From: Hadesarchaea archaeon
GTDB taxonomy: Archaea; Hadarchaeota; Hadarchaeia; Hadarchaeales; Hadarchaeaceae
NCBI GenBank assembly: GCA_012962055.1
Contig: DTYD01000083.1
Span: 1 to 14,088 of the forward strand
DNA length: 14,088 nt
Direction of reading: 5' to 3'
Of this stretch, positions 1,931 to 14,088 are shown piece after piece. Position numbers and translations under genes: made by a program. A model generated the notes under the pieces. That model was given only the letters and a program-made list of their open reading frames with translations. It did not search any database and was not told the DNA's origin. The stretch's first letter is position 1, and the number at the start of each line of letters is the position of its first letter.

Positions 1931-4690
1931 TTGCTTGGCGAGGCGAGCCGATTGAGAGATATCTATCGTGTAGATCTTTTTAGGCGTGAAGGATTCGAGA
2001 GCGAGAAATGTATACACTGTGGGCGGATTTTTTGGACGCTTGACTCAGAACGGAAAACGTGTGGCGACACCCCATGCGACGAGTACGCTTTCATAGGTCG
2101 GCCGCCAACGAAGCGGAAGTACTCGCTGCATCAGATGGAACAATCTTTCTTGAAATTTTTCGAACGACACGGGCACAAAATTGTCAACAGATATCCGGTC
2201 GTGGCCAGATGGCGCGATGATATCTTCCTCACGATTGCCTCTATTGCCGACTTTCAACCTTGGGTCACGAGCGGACAGATACCTCCGCCAGCGAACCCGT
2301 TGGTCATCAGTCAGCCGAGCATACGCCTTAAGGACATAGACAACGTGGGGCGGTCCGGAAAGCACTTCACTCTTTTCTTCATGGGCGGCCACCACGCCTT
2401 CAATTCCCGTCGCAAGCGGATTTACTGGAATGACAAAACGGTTGCGTTATGCCACGAGTTTTTGACAAGAGAATTGGGGATAAAGCCCGAGGAGATCACG
2501 TATATCCAGGACTTCTGGGAAGGTGGGGGAAATGCGGGTGAGGACTTCGAGGTAAATATTTGTGGGCTGGAGGTCGCAACGCTTGTCTTCATGCAGTACG
2601 CGGGCGTGGGCGGGAAACGTTCACCCCTGCTGTTGAAGATAGTAGATACAGGATACGGAATCGAGCGTCTTGTCTGGCTGTCCCAGGGGACGGCTTCAAG
2701 CTATGAGGCGATCTTCGGTCCGGTCGTCGAGCACCTCAGAAAACTTACAGGGCTGAGACCACCGTTGACGGAGGTGCTTCGCGAGAATTCGAAACTCGCC
2801 GGGATTATAGATGTCGGAAGCGGTCGAGATTTGAAGCTACTCAGGTCAAGGGTAGCTACGCGAACAGGGTTGAGCGTGGAGGAACTTGATAAGATTTTGA
2901 CACCTCTCGAGACCGTCTATGCTATCGCCGACCACTTGAGGTGTTTGGTGTTTATGTTCGGCGATGGGATAACCCCAAGTAATGTTCGTGAGGGATATCT
3001 GGCGCGAAGCGTGCTCAGGCGCACCTTGGGATTAATGCGGGAGATAGGACTGAAGGCGCCGCTCGGCGAGTTGATGGCGTTTGAACTAGATCAGCTAACT
3101 CCCCAGTTTCCGGAGTTGAACGAACGGAGGGGCTACATCTTGGAAGTCGTCGATGCAGAAGAACGGCGTTATAAGGATGCGATATCCCGGGGTAGGAGGA
3201 TGGTCGAACGGATGGCGGAAGAACTGCGGGCTAGGAGGAAAACTCTGTCTCAAAAGAAACTTATCGAGCTTTATGATACTCACGGATTGACTCCCGAGAT
3301 AGTCAAAGAGGCGACCGCTAAGGTAGGAGTGCAGGTTGAGGTTCCCGAGGACTTTTACATTAAAGTAGCTGAATCACATAGTCGAGCAAGACACACCCCG
3401 ACGTCCTCCCCTCTTGTTTCGAAGGAAAAACTTAGGAAACTTTCATCCACCAAACAGCTTTACTACAGGGACCCATATGCTCGAGAGTTCAAAGCGAGGG
3501 TGTTGCGCACTTTTGATGAGTACGTTATCCTTGACCAAACGGCCTTTTATCCGGAGGGCGGAGGTCAGCCAAGCGATGTTGGTTCGTTGGAAAGCAGGAG
3601 TACCAAGGTGGAGGTGTCTGACGTCATTAAAGTCGGGGATATAGTTCTCCACCGGGTTAAGCATGCCCTCCTGAAACCAGGACAGCGGGTCGTTGGAAAA
3701 TTGGACTGGGAGAGACGGCGCGCGTTGATGGCTCACCATACGGGAACCCACATCCTGCTCGGGGCCGCGCGCAGGGTGTTAGGTACCCACGTCTGGCAGC
3801 AGGGCGCACAAAAAGAGGTAAATCAGGCCCGGCTTGACATTTCGCACTTCAAACGTATTGGAACGGAAGAACTGCGGGAGATCGAGCGTCTGGCCAACTG
3901 GATAATCACAGAGAATCGGGGGGTGAAAGCGACTTTGATGGATCGGAACCGAGCTGAGCGGCAATACGGGTTCGACCTTTATCAGGGGGGCATAGTCCCG
4001 GGAAAGCAAGTCCGGATAATAGATGTCGAGGGGTGGGATACCCAAGCGTGTGCCGGTACCCATTGCGAACACACCGGTGAAGTCGGTTTCATAAAGATCA
4101 TACGCACCGAACGGATTCAAGATGGGATCGAGCGTATCGAATTTGTGGCGGGCATGGCGGCGTTGAAGTTTGTCCAGACCTGCGAAAGACAGCTCGGTAA
4201 AGCGGCCGAGATTTTACGGACCTCACCGGACAGGGTGGCTGTAGCGACCCAACATCTTTTCGATCGGTGGAAAGCAGCGGAGAAAGAAGTCGAGCGGTTG
4301 AGCAAACGGATGGCAGAGTTTCGGTTGTCTGAACTCAAATCGAAGGTTAGACTCCTGGGAAAGGTTCGAGTGGTATGTGAGGAGGTAGAGGGCGCAAGCG
4401 TGGATGAGTTAATAAAAATAGCGAGCGCGCTCAAAGGGGGGGACAAGAAGATTGTTGTGATATTGGGGTCGCGAAACGCTACAGCTAAATTGGTCGCGAT
4501 GGCTGGTGAAGAAGCTGTGGGCGCCGGGGTAGATTGCGGGGTGATGGTTTCCGAAGCTTCGAGAGTACTTGGTGGCGGAGGCGGAGGCAAATCTTCGATG
4601 GGCCAAGGTGCCGGGCCGAAGACAGATTTTCTGATAGCGGCATTCAAGAAAGCAATGGAGATATGCGAAAAGCAGCAGGTTCATGAGTGA
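1931..4690 (+). CDS. alaS: Alanyl-tRNA synthetase, archaeal type
   Basis: Alanyl-tRNA synthetase charges tRNA(Ala) in the cytoplasm and hydrolyses Ser/Gly mischarged onto it. Counted from the TTG at 1931 it has 919 residues. The archaeal N-terminal cysteine module is at C27, C30, C44 and C49 (C-I-H-C ... C-G-D-T-P-C). It is followed by the class II aminoacylation domain (F-F-M-G-G-H-H-A-F near residue 150). The editing domain has the zinc motif H-H-T-G-T-H at 602-607 and its partner C-A-G-T-H-C at 707-712. The C-Ala domain ends with a Gly-rich stretch before K-S-S-M-G-Q-G-A-G. The start is uncertain: a second in-frame TTG lies at 1952 and would give M-R-D-I-Y-R-V, closer to relatives. The 66-bp gap after P1 shows no clear promoter, so read-through from the ribosomal operon is likely. 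Stop TGA. Confidence 0.96.
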   Translation: MLGEASRLRDIYRVDLFRREGFESEKCIHCGRIFWTLDSERKTCGDTPCDEYAFIGRPPTKRKYSLHQMEQSFLKFFERHGHKIVNRYPVVARWRDDIFLTIASIADFQPWVTSGQIPPPANPLVISQPSIRLKDIDNVGRSGKHFTLFFMGGHHAFNSRRKRIYWNDKTVALCHEFLTRELGIKPEEITYIQDFWEGGGNAGEDFEVNICGLEVATLVFMQYAGVGGKRSPLLLKIVDTGYGIERLVWLSQGTASSYEAIFGPVVEHLRKLTGLRPPLTEVLRENSKLAGIIDVGSGRDLKLLRSRVATRTGLSVEELDKILTPLETVYAIADHLRCLVFMFGDGITPSNVREGYLARSVLRRTLGLMREIGLKAPLGELMAFELDQLTPQFPELNERRGYILEVVDAEERRYKDAISRGRRMVERMAEELRARRKTLSQKKLIELYDTHGLTPEIVKEATAKVGVQVEVPEDFYIKVAESHSRARHTPTSSPLVSKEKLRKLSSTKQLYYRDPYAREFKARVLRTFDEYVILDQTAFYPEGGGQPSDVGSLESRSTKVEVSDVIKVGDIVLHRVKHALLKPGQRVVGKLDWERRRALMAHHTGTHILLGAARRVLGTHVWQQGAQKEVNQARLDISHFKRIGTEELREIERLANWIITENRGVKATLMDRNRAERQYGFDLYQGGIVPGKQVRIIDVEGWDTQACAGTHCEHTGEVGFIKIIRTERIQDGIERIEFVAGMAALKFVQTCERQLGKAAEILRTSPDRVAVATQHLFDRWKAAEKEVERLSKRMAEFRLSELKSKVRLLGKVRVVCEEVEGASVDELIKIASALKGGDKKIVVILGSRNATAKLVAMAGEEAVGAGVDCGVMVSEASRVLGGGGGGKSSMGQGAGPKTDFLIAAFKKAMEICEKQQVHE

Positions 4691-4694
4691 GAGC

Positions 4695-4796
4695 ATGGTG
4701 AACTGGAAGGATATAGACGCCAAGTGGCAGCAGGCCTGGCGCGAGGCAAAGTACGACGAACGTTCATATAGCCGTGAGTACATTCGATTCAATTGA
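4695..4796 (+). pseudogene. Displaced 5' end of leuS (remnant)
   Basis: A 33-codon frame starts at ATG 4695, four bases after the alaS stop, and ends at TGA 4794-4796. Its first 19 residues (M-V-N-W-K-D-I-D-A-K-W-Q-Q-A-W-R-E-A-K) match the start of the complete leuS at 5534 at 13 of 19 residues and, by my count, 41 of 57 bases. After that the match is lost, apart from a possible shared D-E-R. It looks like the original, operon-coupled beginning of leuS, cut off from its body by the insertion that follows. The 72% nucleotide identity is too low for a recent tandem duplication of the same sequence. Its GC-rich codons resemble alaS and the body of leuS more than the AT-rich codons that begin the present leuS. 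The peptide could still be translated, but no function is evident. Confidence 0.8.
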
Positions 4797-4820
4797 AAAG
4801 AGCACATATTGGTGGGGGTG

Positions 4821-4949
4821 ATGCAGCAGCAGCCAAAAACGGCATCTTTCTATAGCATGGAAGGTAGTTTACGAGCAGTTAAGTTACTTTCGGTTTTAAG
4901 GCCGAAAAACAAAACAAATCGTAATTGTGATGATGGAAATACTCTATGA
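4821..4949 (+). CDS. Possible small ORF upstream of the endonuclease (42 aa)
   Basis: An ATG at 4821 opens a 42-codon frame (M-Q-Q-Q-P-K-T-A-S-F ... C-D-D-G-N-T-L) ending at TGA 4947-4949. It is preceded by G-rich sequence (GGTGGGGG, 4811-4818) that could act as a Shine-Dalgarno site. In contrast, the endonuclease start at 4927 has no visible ribosome-binding site. The frame overlaps the endonuclease by 23 bases in a different phase. One reading is that it is the frameshifted N-terminal part of a once longer endonuclease, with its D-D-G-N standing where a first LAGLIDADG motif would end. However, the residues before that are not a convincing hydrophobic helix. It may equally be non-coding. 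Confidence 0.3.
   Translation: MQQQPKTASFYSMEGSLRAVKLLSVLRPKNKTNRNCDDGNTL
4888..4907. other. Small hairpin in the inserted segment
   Basis: TTTCGG (4888-4893) and CCGAAA (4902-4907) are perfect inverse complements around an 8-base loop (TTTTAAGG). The hairpin lies within the 4821 frame, 20 bases before the endonuclease start. A 6-bp stem is weak. It could be a structured leader or chance. Confidence 0.25.
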
Positions 4950-5499
4950 CCACCCCGAGCCTAAAAAGATTCGAATCATCCGGAGGGACAAAAACCTGAT
5001 CTATGTAGTGGGTTTTCATGTTAAGGACAGAGCATTCGTTGAGGAATTTGCAAAGGCTCTAAGGGAAATGGAGCTTAATCCGAGGATATACAGAGAGAGA
5101 AAAGGGTTCTACTCTCTTCATGCATGGGGCGCGAATTTTTACGATTGGTACAAATCATTTTGCTCGGATGATGGATCGCCTGATACAGAGCGATTCAAAG
5201 CATTTGTGCATGGATTTGAAGAGCACGTTGTTCGCGGCTTTTATGAGTCCAAAGGGAGCGTGAGTATACATACATCAGGAAACCTTCGTGTACGAATGGC
5301 TAACAAGCGCGCGAAATTGCTGGAGATGATACGAGGCATGCTATGTAGCTGGGGTATCGATGCAAGAATGTATCCCTCACATTTCAATAATTGCTACTCT
5401 TTATCGGTGTACGGAACCAAACAGGTTAACAAGCTTTTGAAAATAATTAATCCATGTATCAAAACGAAACCTCGCTCAATAAACAGAGAAAAGCGATAA
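4927..5499 (+). CDS. LAGLIDADG-family homing endonuclease-like protein, probably degenerate
   Basis: The 190-residue product resembles archaeal stand-alone LAGLIDADG DNA endonucleases, which cut long target sites and promote copying of their own gene. The visible core is the strand/helix segment around residues 25-60 (V-K-D-R-A-F-V-E-E-F-A-K-A-L), typical of the region just after the first motif, and then a LAGLIDADG-like helix at about 101-110 (V-V-R-G-F-Y-E-S-K-G) followed by S-V-S-I. The C-terminal part (L-L-E-M-I-R-G-M-L ... G-I-D-A-R-M-Y) fits the half-domain after motif two. Two things suggest decay. No first LAGLIDADG motif precedes residue 25, and at the position before the motif glycine, where catalysis needs Asp/Glu, there is Lys109 (AAA, one change from GAA). 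The start is unclear: GTG 4927 and ATG 4930/4933 stand in a row with no ribosome-binding site. Codons are more AT-rich than neighbouring genes. Stop TAA. Confidence 0.75.
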   Translation: MMMEILYDHPEPKKIRIIRRDKNLIYVVGFHVKDRAFVEEFAKALREMELNPRIYRERKGFYSLHAWGANFYDWYKSFCSDDGSPDTERFKAFVHGFEEHVVRGFYESKGSVSIHTSGNLRVRMANKRAKLLEMIRGMLCSWGIDARMYPSHFNNCYSLSVYGTKQVNKLLKIINPCIKTKPRSINREKR

Positions 5500-5533
5500 T
5501 TACTCTCAAGTTGTAAACAGATTGTGTGAACGT

Positions 5534-8425
5534 ATGATAAATTGGTCTGAAATAGATGCAAAGTGGCAGAGGGCTTGGCACGAGAGCAAGATCTTTGAAG
5601 CCGAACCTGATGAAAGACCAAAGTGGTATGTCACGGTCGCATATCCATACGTAAGCGGGCCAATGCATTGCGGTCATGCTCGTACCTACACCGTGCCCGA
5701 CGTGATCGCTCGCTACAAACGCATGCGCGGGTTTAATGTCCTTTTCCCCATGGCGTGGCATTTTACCGGCACGCCAATAGTCGGTGCCGCCAAGCGCGTG
5801 GCTAGGCGTGAACCCGAGTTTGTTAAAGTACTCACCGAACGCTACGACATACCCGCGGAGAGACTGAAGGAATTCGAAGACCCCCACCGCTTCGCCACGT
5901 ACTTCGCCCGCGAAAGCGAGTTGAGCTACCGAAAGGGCATGGAGTGGCTGGGCTACTCGATCGACTGGCGCCGAGAGTTCACTACGGTGGATCCCCTCTA
6001 CAGCAGGTTCATCACATGGCAGTACCACAAGCTACTAAACGCTGGGTTGATCGTGAAGGGCAAACACCCGGTGAAGTGGTGTCCGGGCTGTGGAAACCCT
6101 GTGACGGACCACGACCTGCTCGAAGGGGAAGGCACTGAGATCGTAGAGTTCACGCTGCTGAAATACAGGCTGGACGGCTACGTCCTCCCCGCCGCGACAT
6201 TGAGACCCGAGACGGTATTCGGCGTGACAAACCTATGGCTGGGCCCGGATGTGAGGTACGTCGTCGCGGATGTCGGTGGCGAGAAATGGATCGTCAGCGA
6301 GCAGTCTGTGGAGAAGTTACGTTACCAAGGGTACAAAATCGGAGAGGTAAATCCAGCTTCGATTGATTTCAGCAAACGCGTTGAAGTACCGCTCACCCAC
6401 AAGCGCGTGCCGGTGCTTCCCGCCAGTTTCGTGGACCCCAACAACGCGACGGGGGTGGTTGGATCCGTCCCGTCCCACGCTCCTTACGATTACGTTGCCC
6501 TGATGGAGCTCCAGCGGCGGACCGAGATGGCAAAGCAGTACAATATCGACCGCCGCACGGTCGCCGGACTCAAGCCGATCTCCCTGATCGAAGTAGAAGG
6601 GTTTGGTGAATCTCCGGCCATAGACGTCGTGAATCGAATGGGGATCGAACATCAGGCCGACCCGAGACTGGAAGAGGCCACTGCGGAGGTCTACAGGAAC
6701 GAGTTTGCGAAGGGCAGGATGCGCCCCTGGGTCGAAAAATATGGTGGCATGCTGGTCTCCCAGGCAAAGCAGACCGTGCGCGACGACATGCTGAAAAGCG
6801 GAGAGGCAGCGGTGATGTACGAGTTTTCGACGACCCCTGTCACCTGCAGATGCGGCACCAGGGTGGCCGTGAAAGTTGTCGAAGACCAGTGGTTCCTGAA
6901 TTACGCCGACGAGAACTGGAAGGAAAAGGTCAGGAAATGTCTGGCCACCATGCACCTCGTACCGCCCGAGACCCGCGCGCAGTTCGAGCATACGATAAAT
7001 TGGCTTCGTGAATGGCCTTGTGTTCGGAGCGTGGGGATGGGAACGCCCGCTCCGTGGGACCCGAAGTGGATAATCGAGTCCCTGAGCGACTCCACGGTAT
7101 ACATGGCGTATTACACGATTTCCCACATCCTGAAGACGATCGAGCCCGAAAAGCTCACGGACGGGGTCTTCGATTACGTATTCCACGGAAAGGGCTCTCC
7201 AGGCGATATTTCCGTCTCCACGAAAATCGAAAAGAAAAAACTCGAACAGATGCGCCGGGAGTTTGAATACTGGTACCCGCTTGATTACAGGATGTCGGCA
7301 AACGAGCTTATACCAAATCATCTAACTTTCCACATCTTCCATCATGCCGAGCTCTTCCCGAAACACTGCCCCCGGGGGATAGTCAGCTTTGGGATGGCGG
7401 TGCTGGAGGGCCAGAAGATGTCGTCGTCGAAGGGCAACATCATAGCGGTCAACGAAGCCGTCAGGGAACACGGGGCAGACACAACACGCCTTTATCTGGC
7501 GTCTGTCGCAGAACCCTGGCAGGACCTCGACTGGCGCGCGAACGAGGTAGCGGCGATGAGGAGGAACTTGGAACGTTTTTACTCGCTCGCGGGAGAGATA
7601 ATCGCCCTGCCGGACACCGGACACCCGAGCTTTGCACAGCCGGAGCGGTGGATGCTCAGCCGGCTTCAGAGGCACATCGGGGCAACCACCGAGGCGTTGG
7701 ATGTGTTCGAGACCCGCAAAGCCGTACAGCACGTCTTCTTCGGGCTGATGCAGGACCTTCGGTGGTACATGAAGCGGGCCGCTCAGCCGGAGGCGCGCGT
7801 CCACGTGCTTAAACGGGTGCTGGGTCTCTGGCTCAGGTTGCTCGCCCCGTTCACGCCGCACGTATGCGAAGAGCTCTGGAGCCGGATGGGAAAAGAAGGC
7901 TTCGTGTCGGTTGCCCCCTGGCCAAGCGTTGAAGGAGGCCTGATTGACGAGGGCGCTGAGATGGCTGAGGGTTACATCGTCAGGGTAATCGAAGATGTTG
8001 GAAAGATACGGAAGGTGACGAAGGTCATGCGCCCTAGTAAGATCTGCTTCTACGTCGCACAGGACTGGAAATGGAAGGCATACCGCATCGCGATGGAACA
8101 CGTGCGGGCCGGGCGGGTGGATTTCGGCAAGCTTCTCCGCAGGGTTGAGGAAGAGCTGGGGTTAAGGCTCCACAGGGCCGATCTGTCGAAATATCTCCAG
8201 GCGGCTGTTAAGGAGCTCAGGGAAATGCCTGAAAAAGATTTTAACCTCATCGCAAAAACCGAGGTGGACGAGTTTCGTGTCCTGCTAGATGCCGCCGGTT
8301 TCATCCGTGGGCAGGTTGGGGCTGCAGCTGTCCATGTTTTCAAGGCAGATGATCCAAAACGCTATGATCCGCAAGATCGAGCAAGGTTGGCGGTGCCACT
8401 CAGGCCCGCGATTTTTCTCGAGTGA
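5534..8425 (+). CDS. leuS: Leucyl-tRNA synthetase, archaeal/eukaryotic type
   Basis: Leucyl-tRNA synthetase (class I) charges tRNA(Leu). With ATG 5534 it has 963 residues, a normal length for the archaeal form. The HIGH motif is H45-C-G-H48 (in G-P-M-H-C-G-H-A-R-T), and the KMSKS motif is K-M-S-S-S at 628-632 followed by K-G-N. Between them lie the zinc-like C-P-G-C module near residue 180 and the CP1 editing domain. An all-helical tRNA-binding domain and the archaeal C-terminal extension follow. A TTG at 5522 would add four residues, but ATG 5534 aligns with the start of the displaced copy at 4695. The first roughly 50 codons are AT-richer than the rest, suggesting a separate origin linked to the insertion upstream. 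No strong ribosome-binding site is visible, so expression may now depend on a promoter in the inserted segment. Stop TGA overlaps the next region. Confidence 0.96.
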   Translation: MINWSEIDAKWQRAWHESKIFEAEPDERPKWYVTVAYPYVSGPMHCGHARTYTVPDVIARYKRMRGFNVLFPMAWHFTGTPIVGAAKRVARREPEFVKVLTERYDIPAERLKEFEDPHRFATYFARESELSYRKGMEWLGYSIDWRREFTTVDPLYSRFITWQYHKLLNAGLIVKGKHPVKWCPGCGNPVTDHDLLEGEGTEIVEFTLLKYRLDGYVLPAATLRPETVFGVTNLWLGPDVRYVVADVGGEKWIVSEQSVEKLRYQGYKIGEVNPASIDFSKRVEVPLTHKRVPVLPASFVDPNNATGVVGSVPSHAPYDYVALMELQRRTEMAKQYNIDRRTVAGLKPISLIEVEGFGESPAIDVVNRMGIEHQADPRLEEATAEVYRNEFAKGRMRPWVEKYGGMLVSQAKQTVRDDMLKSGEAAVMYEFSTTPVTCRCGTRVAVKVVEDQWFLNYADENWKEKVRKCLATMHLVPPETRAQFEHTINWLREWPCVRSVGMGTPAPWDPKWIIESLSDSTVYMAYYTISHILKTIEPEKLTDGVFDYVFHGKGSPGDISVSTKIEKKKLEQMRREFEYWYPLDYRMSANELIPNHLTFHIFHHAELFPKHCPRGIVSFGMAVLEGQKMSSSKGNIIAVNEAVREHGADTTRLYLASVAEPWQDLDWRANEVAAMRRNLERFYSLAGEIIALPDTGHPSFAQPERWMLSRLQRHIGATTEALDVFETRKAVQHVFFGLMQDLRWYMKRAAQPEARVHVLKRVLGLWLRLLAPFTPHVCEELWSRMGKEGFVSVAPWPSVEGGLIDEGAEMAEGYIVRVIEDVGKIRKVTKVMRPSKICFYVAQDWKWKAYRIAMEHVRAGRVDFGKLLRRVEEELGLRLHRADLSKYLQAAVKELREMPEKDFNLIAKTEVDEFRVLLDAAGFIRGQVGAAAVHVFKADDPKRYDPQDRARLAVPLRPAIFLE

Positions 8426-10620: not shown

Positions 10621-10862
10621 AAGCGAGAGAATCTATGGTCGAAAAGGTTAAGAATATAGCGGAACTGCTGAGGGGGAACGACATCAGCGGAGCGATGGAA
10701 CTTATCGAAAGAGAACTCTGTGATTTCTTTACCAAGAGTTGCGTCATGGAAAATTCGGTAAATCCGAGGAGTACAGCTCTCTGTTTGCATTGCAAAAATT
10801 TTGATGAGGTCAACCTCGTCTGTAAATGGATACCGTTAAGCGTGGAGGAGCGGAATTTATGA
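10617..10862 (+). CDS. Small Cys-rich protein between nrdG and nrdD
   Basis: I do not recognise this 81-residue protein. Residues 7-38 look helical (M-V-E-K-V-K-N-I-A-E-L-L ... A-M-E-L-I-E-R-E-L). The second half has C35, C42, C56-x2-C59 and C69, a spacing that could bind zinc or an iron-sulphur cluster. The GTG at 10617 overlaps the nrdG stop (GTGA), with GGAGGA at 10603-10608 eight bases upstream; ATG 10635 is the alternative start. Its own stop overlaps the nrdD start (ATGA), so the three genes are translationally coupled. This placement suggests a helper in NrdD activation or metal/redox handling. That is inference from position and cysteines only. No signal peptide or membrane segment is visible. 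Confidence 0.75.
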   Translation: MKARESMVEKVKNIAELLRGNDISGAMELIERELCDFFTKSCVMENSVNPRSTALCLHCKNFDEVNLVCKWIPLSVEERNL

Positions 10863-12919
10863 GCGAGATCATCAAAGTGCGGAAGCGCGACGGCAGGATC
10901 GTGGACTTCGATCAGGAGCGCATAACCAACGCGATATTCGCGGCCGCGACCGCTGTGGGCGGACGGGACAGGAGAATAGCAGAGAGGCTGTCCCGTGAAG
11001 TGACGAGAATTTTGGAGGAGAGGCACGCCGGTCAGGTGCCGAGTGTGGAAGAGATTCAAGATATCGTCGAAAAAGTTCTCATAGAGCACGGCCATGCGAG
11101 AACCGCCAAGGCATACATCCTGTACCGCAAGCGACGTGAAGAGATGAGGAAGCTCAAGTCCACGTTTCTCGAAGTTGAGCACATAGTCGACGATTACCTC
11201 GGCATGCGGGACTGGAGAGTCAGAGAGAACAGCAATATGGGATACTCCTACTCGGGTTTGTTGTACCATATCGCCACATCTGTGATCGCGAATTATACGC
11301 TCGACAAAATCTACCCGATGGAAGTCGCGGATGCGCATACCAATGGAGACATACACATTCATGACCTCGGTTCTGGGATCGTCGGTTATTGCGCTGGATG
11401 GAGTTTGCGTCAGCTTTTGGCAGAAGGGTTTAACGGTGTTCCGAGCAAAGTGGCCTCCAAACCTCCGGCCCATCTCGATACAGCCCTGCTCTAGATGTCG
11501 AATTTTCTCGGATCTCTTCAGAACGAGTGGGCGGGGGCCCAGGCTTTTAATGGTGTTGACACAATGCTGGCGCCGTTCGTGAGAAAAGACAAGCTAGATT
11601 ACAGAAAAGTCAGACAGGCAATGCAGACATTCGTGTTCAACCTGAATATCGCTTCGCGCTGGGGCGGGCAGACTCCGTTTACCAACGTGACCCTCGATCT
11701 TACGGTGCCGGAGGACCTGGCAGGGGAGCACGTGGTGGTCGGTGGCAGGCTGAACGGGGGCACGTATGAGGAGTACGCGGAAGAGATGGAGATGATAAAT
11801 CGCGCGTTCATCGAGGTAATGACTGAGGGTGACATGAACGGGAGGCCATTTACTTTTCCGATTCCAACTTATTCGCTCACAAAGGACTTTGAATGGGACA
11901 ACGGCATATCGTCTGTGTTGTTCGAGATGACCGCTAAATATGGCCTTCCCTATTTCCAGAATTTCATCAACAGCGATTTGAGGCCGAGCGACGTGAGATC
12001 GATGTGTTGCAGACTTCAGCTCGACTTGAGGGAGTTAAGAAAAAATGTAACCGGTGGACTCTTCGGCTCCGGTGACTCTACAGGTTCGGTGGGAGTCGTC
12101 ACGATAAACATGTCTCGTCTGGGTTACCTCTCCAAAGACGAGGACGAGTTCTTCGAGAGGTTGGAGTACGTCATGGAGCTGGCCAGGATCTCGTTGGAGA
12201 CCAAACGCGAGATGGTTACGAAGAACGTGGAGAGCGGTCTGTTGCCATTCACCAAACGATACCTCGGAACCCTGAACAACCATTTCTCGACCATAGGTTT
12301 GGTGGGTATGAACGAGGCCCTTTTGAACCTCTTCGGCTACGGGATTGCTACCGAAGATGGCAAAAACTTCGCAGTCAGGACGCTCAAGTTCATGCGTGGA
12401 TGCATCCAAAGGTTCCAGGAGGAGACTGGCCACATATACAACCTCGAGGCGACTCCTGCCGAGGGAACCTCTTATCGTCTAGCGAAGATCGACAGGCGAA
12501 AGTACCCGGACATAATAACGGCAGGCGAGAGGGCACCGTATTATACGAATTCGACTATTTTGCCCGTGGATAGTGGCCTCGACCTCATATCAGTTCTGAA
12601 GCATCAAGAGGATTTACAGACGCTGTACACCGGGGGCACCGTGGTTCATCTGTTCATAGGTGAGAGTCTGGAAGACGGGGAGAGCTGCATGAACTTGGTC
12701 AGGAAAGCCGCATACAACACCAGATTGCCCTACTTCACGGTGACGCCAACGTATACCATATGCCAGGATCATGGTTTTGTTCCGGGCGAGTATCACAAGT
12801 GCCCTACTTGTGGCAGGGATACCGAGGTTTATTCCCGCATTGTCGGGTATTACCGTCCCCTGATACAGTGGAATACAGGCAAGCAAGAAGAATTTCGACA
12901 ACGGATTGAGTTCACTTAG
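10859..12919 (+). CDS. nrdD: Anaerobic ribonucleoside-triphosphate reductase, interrupted by in-frame TAG
   Basis: Class III ribonucleotide reductase makes dNTPs from NTPs using a glycyl radical. Read through the TAG at codon 212 it would be 686 residues, a normal family length. Residues 1-95 are the ATP-cone (K-V-R-K-R-D-G-R-I-V-D-F). C178 in G-Y-C-A-G-W corresponds to one active-site cysteine, and C383-C384 (M-C-C-R-L) contain the thiyl-radical cysteine. C635, H638, C648 and C651 make the C-terminal metal site. G663 in R-I-V-G-Y-Y is the radical glycine. Without readthrough the pieces are 211 residues (10859-11494) and 474 residues (from ATG 11495), each holding part of the active site. The start ATG 10859 is backed by GGAGGAG at 10844-10850. 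No ribosome-binding site precedes 11495. The gene ends in TAG, with a TAA four codons later. Confidence 0.9.
11492..11494 (+). other. In-frame amber codon within nrdD
   Basis: The TAG lies between A-L-L and M-S-N-F-L-G. Relatives as I recall them read A-L-G-Q-M-V-N-F-L-G here, so TAG replaces a conserved glutamine (CAG to TAG, one transition). Both flanks keep strong family similarity with no frame change. The ATG directly after it could restart translation, but the 20 bases before it contain no Shine-Dalgarno sequence. Confidence 0.85.
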
Positions 12920-13538: not shown

Positions 13539-13590
13539 AACAGCTAGGTGGGCAGAGGATTATTAAGAATAGCTGCTATATTATTCCAGA

Positions 13591-13596
13591 GGAGGT
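13591..13596 (+). promoter_or_regulatory. Strong ribosome-binding site of thyX
   Basis: GGAGGT lies five bases before ATG 13602 and fixes the thyX start. The 63-bp gap after dcd is otherwise AT-rich without a clear TATA box, so thyX may be co-transcribed with dcd. Confidence 0.7.
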
Positions 13597-13601
13597 CAAG
13601 A

Positions 13602-14088
13602 ATGAAGGTCGAACTGATATTCATCACCCCCGACGCTGAAAAATTGATAGAATCTGCCGGTCGCACGTGTTATCAGTCGTTCGGGAAGCAGGGAAAGGAC
13701 ACAGAAAAGGCGTTCATAAGGATGCTCGTCAAGATGGGCCACCTCTCCGTGCTTGAACACGCCTCCGCCACGTTCAGGGTCTCAGGCGTCTCGAGGGCGT
13801 TCACGCACCAGTTCGTGAGGCACAGGCTGTGTTCGTACTCCCAGCAGTCCCAGAGATACGTTGACGAGAGCAATTTCAGTTACGTAGAGCCCGAATCGAT
13901 AAAAAACAATCCCGAAGCCCATTCAAAGTTCATCGAGTTCATGGACGGGGCCAAGAAAACGTATTCGGAGCTGCAAAAGTTGGGAATCAAGAACGAGGAT
14001 GCTCGATTTGTGCTGCCCAACGCCGTGGAAACCCAGATTGTGGCCACCGCGAACCTCCGAGAGTGGCGCCATATAATTGAACTCAGGG
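13602..14088 (+). CDS. thyX: Flavin-dependent thymidylate synthase, 3' partial
   Basis: ThyX methylates dUMP to dTMP using methylene-tetrahydrofolate as carbon donor and NAD(P)H through FAD, as a homotetramer. The window shows the first 162 residues, and the frame is open at the right edge. The ThyX signature R-H-R-x7-S is complete: R73, H74, R75 and S83 in R-H-R-L-C-S-Y-S-Q-Q-S-Q-R-Y. Also present are G-H-L-S-V-L-E-H-A (46-54), which contacts substrate and flavin, and, near the edge, L-R-E-W-R-H-I-I-E-L-R, the region of the substrate-activating arginine. It follows dcd, so dUMP production and consumption are encoded side by side. Use of ThyX implies a folate-type C1 carrier in this archaeon. 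Confidence 0.95.
   Translation, partial: MKVELIFITPDAEKLIESAGRTCYQSFGKQGKDTEKAFIRMLVKMGHLSVLEHASATFRVSGVSRAFTHQFVRHRLCSYSQQSQRYVDESNFSYVEPESIKNNPEAHSKFIEFMDGAKKTYSELQKLGIKNEDARFVLPNAVETQIVATANLREWRHIIELR

Follow-up and report, generated by a model that had tools for sequence, protein, structure and literature searches.

Two leuS starts around an endonuclease gene

The stretch analysed here, referred to as the window, comprises 14,088 nucleotides and is contig 83 of a 745-kb Hadesarchaea metagenome-assembled genome (MAG; 156 contigs, 77% complete; G000 below), in which a gene for a LAGLIDADG endonuclease lies at the junction of the synthetase genes alaS and leuS, between two copies of the leuS start. 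The alaS frame stops at 4690 and is followed from 4695 by the first of these starts (copy 1), while the complete leuS gene is that of the second (copy 2), starting at 5534. The features of the locus are listed below in order of position.

4290..4751, plus strand: tract resembling the same-genus genome G002, 462 bp, holding the alaS 3′ end and leuS codons 1–19; 94.6% identity, edge placed by a change point
4695..4796, plus strand: copy 1, a leuS 5′ stub of 33 codons (19 matching leuS, 14 not) with its stop at 4794; the match breaks after 4751
4752..5533, no strand: insert separating the two leuS starts; GC content 0.417
4884..4893, plus strand: leader core TTACTTTCGG; the remainder of the element is not recognisable in the window
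4927..5499, plus strand: LAGLIDADG endonuclease open reading frame (ORF) of 190 aa, matching PF14528
5500..5529, plus strand: possible, weak trace of an alaS 3′ end (LLSSCKQIV and a stop)
5534..5890, plus strand: copy 2, codons 1–119 of the present leuS, possibly an exchanged segment; codons 1–50 are AT-rich and most diverged
5891..8425, plus strand: leuS codons 120–963, grouping with the same-genus genomes G001 and G002

The repeat of the leuS start extends over 62 nt (4684–4745 versus 5523–5584) at 73% identity, and when the two starts are compared from their ATGs, 41 of 57 bases and 13 of 19 residues are equal. A first-pass annotation made from the sequence alone had described two diverged leuS starts around an AT-rich insert with a LAGLIDADG-like gene, giving these same counts, and the duplication indeed stands above cross-paired controls. 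At the protein level the leuS flank pair scored 99, compared with a maximum of 78 in 1560 cross-pairs drawn from the flanks of 40 endonuclease genes, and at the DNA level it scored 40, a value attained by 0.2% of cross-pairs. The insert also differs in composition from its surroundings, with GC contents of 0.535 at 4290–4751 and 0.576 in leuS codons 51–963. A candidate alaS tail ahead of copy 2 ends 4 nt before the ATG, just as alaS itself does at copy 1; this trace is weak, with 3 of the 490 open positions in the insert, and 5.8% of shuffles, scoring equally high.

An assembly artefact might be suspected in a MAG as fragmented and incomplete as this one. However, a second record has both the endonuclease (P0001) and LeuS (P0002), each listed with a contig of 17,866 bases and each differing from the window by one residue, which disfavours a chimaeric window contig, and the metG gene described below is an independent parallel. 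We thus regard an artefact as extremely improbable.

The window endonuclease

The ORF at 4927–5499 matched the LAGLIDADG_3 family (PF14528) with an E-value of 2.6e-9 and 37.6 bits against a curated cut-off of 22.5; no NCBIfam model matched it and comparison with the PDB gave no meaningful match. Related endonucleases of 261–419 aa are encoded ahead of pheT, nuoD and topIB in G000 and in the genomes G006 and G015, and only the C-terminal half to two thirds of these proteins has a counterpart in the window ORF, from which the N-terminal portion carrying the first motif is absent. In the second LAGLIDADG motif, the window ORF has a Lys in place of the acidic residue, which we take to have a catalytic role. 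Judged from these features, the endonuclease of the window is probably inactive.

LAGLIDADG genes are often found within introns, and a spliced element (a group I or bulge-helix-bulge intron, or an intein), of which the two starts would be exon and intron parts, would be in line with the in-frame joining of copy 1 codon 19 to copy 2 codon 20. Copy 2, however, has a start codon of its own, no Rfam match was found at E up to 1 in 4500–5800, and no intein domain was found at the insert. An intron was also rejected upon co-folding of the junctions, which gave −22.1 kcal/mol (one base out of register) versus −22.1 kcal/mol for shuffles. This leaves a spliced element as a most improbable explanation.

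A G002-like tract ending at the insertion

A LeuS match was present in all 61 genomes searched, and the leuS 5′ junction was compared in the loci of 20 relatives, in 18 of which alaS lies upstream near leuS, in some with short gaps. No alaS match was found in G011 within the fetched flank, and in G013 alaS was matched to residue 911 only, about 560 bp from leuS. The junction of G005 is interrupted by an insertion of its own, about 1 kb long (L042, 8280–9247), with two small genes, which we take to resemble a nucleotidyltransferase/HEPN-type pair. The comparison of alaS–leuS junctions that the first-pass annotation had proposed as a check did reveal an uninterrupted one, in the same-genus genome G002, where leuS is continuous from the copy-1 sequence into codon 20.

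Identity between the window and G002 is about 70% in alaS up to 4289, 94.6% at 4290–4751 and 63–84% per 100 bp in leuS beyond the insert. The left edge of the tract was placed at 4290 by a change point (delta lnL 59.5) and its right edge coincides with the insertion. Outside the tract, identities to G005, G015, G020 and G006 are 69, 67, 66 and 66% for the window versus 78, 76, 75 and 74% for G002, while inside it they are 68, 66, 64 and 61% versus 68, 65, 66 and 60%; G001 does not discriminate in the same three-way comparison (70 and 69% outside the tract, 62 and 64% within it). Since the window is thus more distant than G002 outside the tract and equally distant inside it, the window lineage is the recipient of a G002-like piece. 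Homing is known to leave co-conversion tracts behind (PMC2988022), and the segment 4290–4751 reads as one that came from a G002-like lineage. Both copy 1 and the final 400 bp of alaS are probably a recent import that arrived with the element. The first-pass annotation had considered the upstream copy to be the native remnant of leuS, but it is of the G002 type and lies inside the imported tract, and is therefore probably the flank of the donor and not a remnant of this lineage's own gene.

These observations also bear on the possibility of an ordinary intergenic endonuclease insertion that happens to lie beside a duplication of local origin or a patch of unrelated recombination. Other endonuclease genes of G000, directly ahead of nuoD, topIB and pheT, do lack a long duplicated stub, as such a coincidence would have it. 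However, the tract edge coincides with the insertion, and copy 1, with near-identity to G002 and 72% identity to copy 2, is therefore not a local duplicate, which makes this explanation very unlikely.

Duplicated gene ends at other endonuclease genes

PF14528 was catalogued in 28 genomes, of which 25 were positive, and 44 free-standing endonuclease ORFs, each with an open frame shorter than 450 aa, were picked by hand, with at least two short ORFs left aside. Enough sequence for comparison of flanks was available for 40 of the 44 at the protein level and for 42 at the DNA level. Protein-level flank duplication above every cross-pair was found at three of the 40, namely aspS (146), metG (100) and leuS (99), all three being aminoacyl-tRNA synthetase genes. 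The DNA-level scan gave a score of 52, above that of leuS, for an endonuclease gene of G002 with a repeat of a tRNA 3′ end, as well as three weaker tRNA-like repeats at 26–29, compared with a 99% control level of 29; it missed metG, at 23 within noise.

The metG gene of G015 (L183, G015:C2) could be compared with its uninterrupted counterpart in G007. The two are 96.5% identical over 860 bp, to the end of a 32-codon metG stub, whereupon 2048 bp in G015 replace 825 bp of G007, and from about metG codon 317 identity resumes at 94.3% over 1594 bp. Between the stub and the native 3′ part lie an endonuclease ORF of 339 aa and metG codons 1–317 of another type, having 88–95% identity to G012 and 40–58% to G007 per 40-codon window. 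This hybrid is read straight from the identity blocks and needs no tree; it is a completed exchange of the metG 5′ end, with the same layout as at leuS. The donor of the 5′ type was likely G012-like, which is not proven because G012 belongs to the same genus. G012 itself (L218) has the other metG type without an endonuclease gene, and about 35 nt of the 3′ end of that gene are left ahead of its metG start, a remnant that is the scar of a loss. In G006 (L219), a MAKFYI start like that of G011 is joined to the other type.

Two types of metG are thus seen within one family (L183 in G015, L218 in G012, L219 in G006 and L220 in G007). The expected metG start lacks ATG, GTG or TTG in two sequences, reading ACA in G007 and ACG in the stub of G015.

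The aspS gene of G015 carries a 4.4-kb insertion right after its stop codon (L151, 3323–7742, reverse complement), in which an endonuclease gene is accompanied by a second, diverged aspS tail of 40 codons; G012 is continuous at this position.

Composition and phylogeny of the downstream leuS start

The GC content at third codon positions of the present leuS is 0.46 in codons 1–50, 0.68 in codons 51–119 and 0.71–0.79 later, in agreement with the AT-rich start of about 50 codons noted in the first-pass annotation. Over codons 1–50 the window was, among 14 taxa, on average the most distant at the DNA level (mean 0.34, with G001 and G003 at 0.33), and a weak change point (delta lnL 2.0–6.1) suggests that the odd 5′ part may extend to codon 114–119. 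The leuS tree of codons 120–963 placed the window with G001 (Shimodaira–Hasegawa-like approximate likelihood ratio 98–99) and then G002. For codons 1–119, however, it was placed with G013 in the DNA tree (92/89), and the protein tree put it in a weakly supported group that also held G003, G013 and two further members. Of 15 relative-rate tests, 6 gave p < 0.01, all with G002 and with G020 or G015 as outgroup. A foreign origin of the window leuS 5′ end is probable.

Several findings weigh against this reading and against an exchange by homing. A genus clade for codons 1–119 was not rejected by the approximately unbiased (AU) test (p 0.076–0.29), the constraint costing 6–13 log units. The other 9 of the 15 relative-rate tests gave p 0.05–0.26, so that the outcome varies with the reference. 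Codons 1–119 (9/53) and the later codons (50/261) have derived bases in common with G001 at about the same frequency. No donor for the leuS 5′ segment came to light, the best matches to the LeuS N terminus, which include proteins named Hadarchaeota and Hadesarchaea, being at 87%. A second G002-like patch at 13582–14088 (90% identity versus about 75% around it) indicates that recombination with that lineage extends beyond leuS and that homing is not needed to explain every such tract. Moreover, nuoD of G000 is preceded by an endonuclease gene and yet has no 5′ anomaly, its flanks overlapping by 10 bp only. At aspS of G015, finally, the tail in the insertion has 62% identity to the used end, which is itself native-like (93% to that of G007); with this opposite polarity, aspS is not counted as support. 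The proposal of the first-pass annotation that a foreign leuS 5′ segment had taken over is hence sustained with regards to the endonuclease insert in the leuS 5′ end and has a clean case in metG of G015, while a foreign start at leuS itself is putative. Separate trees for the two parts of leuS, as it had suggested and as run here for codons 1–119 and 120–963, did give different placements, but common ancestry was not significantly rejected.

A related scenario would have the downstream start as the resident one, with a G002-like piece (alaS 3′ end, leuS codons 1–19 and endonuclease gene) recombined into alaS on its left and joined just upstream of leuS on its right, and no exchange of leuS. 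It would account for the tract and its direction, for the derived bases in common with G001, for the AT-rich leuS starts of both the window and G001, each beginning ATGATA, and for the possible alaS tail ahead of copy 2. However, the donor would still have needed a working leuS behind the insert, codons 1–50 are diverged beyond expectation, and over codons 1–119 the row nearest to the window is another than G001. We consider a resident downstream start unlikely, though well worth keeping in view.

The leuS gene of G001 (L007/L041) has a GC content of 0.43–0.46 in codons 1–119 versus 0.53–0.57 later, as if exchanged too, and carries one in-frame TGA. For codons 1–119, a clade made up of G001, G002 and two near proteins and excluding the window was marginally rejected (p 0.049). 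The leuS 5′ end may be a site of repeated exchange.

Other endonuclease insertions

In near relatives, the starts of nuoD, topIB and pheT lie behind nuoC, truA and pheS without an endonuclease gene (topIB behind truA in G002). In G000, topIB codons 1–40 and pheT codons 1–120 look odd. A broken endonuclease gene is kept ahead of pheT in G022, where a short ORF between pheS and pheT (L189, 2067–2226, minus strand) looks, by eye, helix-turn-helix-like at its start and endonuclease-like towards its end, as though an internal part had been deleted. In G016 the 3′ end of an endonuclease gene overlaps a tRNA gene, and the endonuclease gene is absent in G012 between flanks of 94% and 98% identity. Endonuclease genes adjoin tRNA genes at L166 (3577–4350), L176 (3804–3905), L150, L163 and L187 as well, with L166 showing a complete tRNA-Ile, the endonuclease gene and then a second tRNA 3′ end.

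Elsewhere in the window, a gene resembling anaerobic ribonucleotide reductase is interrupted by an in-frame TAG at 11492–11494 (ORFs 10826–11494 and 11495–12919, in one frame), where G002 has a sense codon; a nonsense change, read-through and a sequence error are all candidate explanations.

A leader element shared with replication and repair genes

Upstream of several related endonuclease genes we found TTTATAAATTACTTTCGGNNNCCTCTCTCCCCNAAA or a near form of it. The complete leader element consists of a TATA-like part and ACTTTCGG...CTCTCCCC, and is found upstream of mcm, radA, nurA, hel308 and top6B as well as of selfish genes (LAGLIDADG, TnpB), which rules out that it is private to endonuclease genes. 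Its loci are L244–L278, for example L245 (6998–7040, minus strand) and L247 (558), together with L183, the leader of the metG endonuclease gene. A strict pattern matched five stretches in the genome-contig collection, all from Hadesarchaea MAGs, while a looser one matched in 17 of 27 genomes of the order (reversed control 0/27) and in none of the three genomes of the window's genus.

The loci listed for the looser pattern and the five strict-pattern stretches comprise at least 27 distinct sites. At nine of the 27 listed sites the next gene is one of replication or repair (MCM four times, NurA twice, and RadA, Hel308 and Topo VI-B), with the MCM genes beginning 255–277 nt from the element and Hel308 and Topo VI-B carrying inteins. 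The next gene encodes a LAGLIDADG protein at four sites, TnpB at two with one more weak match, a DDE transposase at one (215 nt away) and a diphthamide synthesis protein at one. Three sites precede genes of 271–280 aa that are alike and have no Pfam or NCBIfam match, nor did one of them match the PDB; the next genes at four sites had no match, weak or helix-turn-helix matches, or were unscanned, and two sites had no ORF.

The leader core includes ANTTTC, the hexamer to which Orc1-2 binds in the damage response of Saccharolobus (PMC9738581). This hexamer is the sole feature in common with the Orc1-2 damage-response regulon, and we mention a candidate connection as a lead. Possibly, the element marks a replication–repair regulon used by mobile elements, with a strict form that appears confined to Hadesarchaea MAGs. 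A common promoter-like element suggests that selfish endonucleases are expressed together with the host recombination machinery.

Discussion

We find it likely that the insert at the alaS–leuS junction of this archaeal chromosome represents the decayed remains of a homing cassette, accompanied by an exchange of the leuS 5′ end. A free-standing LAGLIDADG endonuclease would have cut the 5′ end of leuS, whereupon repair would have copied in the upstream flank of a G002-like donor (the 462-bp tract) together with the endonuclease gene, and also the donor's diverged leuS 5′ end, now the working start, comprising at least codons 1–19 and perhaps extending to codon 119. With leuS essential and no intron or intein found, a donor carrying the endonuclease gene after codon 19 would have needed such a second start. 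The cassette would thereby act as a natural home-and-rescue element, breaking an essential gene and supplying its replacement end, and the endonuclease would afterwards have been truncated at its N terminus and probably inactivated.

Endonuclease-linked exchange of gene ends is known from fungal mitochondria, both C-terminal (PMC3630166) and N-terminal (PMC7315562). In mitochondrial hybrids of Allomyces macrogynus atp6 and of Glomus atp6, atp9, cox2 and nad3, an endonuclease gene lies between two copies of a gene end, of which the used one is foreign and the stranded one matches a near relative (PMC3630166). The analogy to Allomyces atp6 drawn in the first-pass annotation proved apt, with two copies of one gene end flanking the endonuclease gene at leuS and at metG of G015. 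The stranded copy resembles a near unoccupied relative in both, leuS copy 1 being like G002 (in the local tract only) and the metG stub like G007 (the 96.5% block), and at metG of G015 the end in use is of foreign type compared with the remainder of the gene. In contrast to those mitochondrial cases, which concern 3′ (C-terminal) ends of respiratory genes, 5′ ends of synthetase genes in archaeal chromosomes are concerned here. In mitochondria of Tremella fuciformis, 5′ gene parts are likewise duplicated and exchanged with mobile elements, with states of invasion and loss; those elements with N-terminal duplication are described as introns, one confirmed as real (PMC7315562), whereas no intron was found here. 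Phage endonuclease genes also lie outside introns and leave co-conversion tracts, with no carried gene end described in the passages considered. The synthetic home-and-rescue drive HomeR is, as the cassette would be, aimed at an essential gene for which it supplies a re-coded rescue, but is engineered, CRISPR-based, used in flies and directed at a 3′ coding end (PMC7968924). No archaeal or synthetase case of gene-end exchange was found in titles or abstract openings among the literature matches listed, with subscription papers mostly outside their scope, in keeping with the first-pass annotation, which knew of none for an archaeal synthetase.

More tentatively, Hadarchaeota at large might carry natural home-and-rescue elements, that is, LAGLIDADG genes under a host replication–repair promoter element that target essential genes for cleavage, chiefly those for aminoacyl-tRNA synthetases, and restore them with a carried, diverged gene end, so that repeated invasion and loss would yield mosaic synthetase genes; this we hold to be possible but open to considerable doubt. 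If true, endonuclease-driven exchange of gene ends would extend from fungal mitochondria to archaeal chromosomes and to essential synthetase genes, there would be a concrete route to mosaic synthetase genes that confuse gene trees, and the engineered rescue drives would have a natural counterpart.

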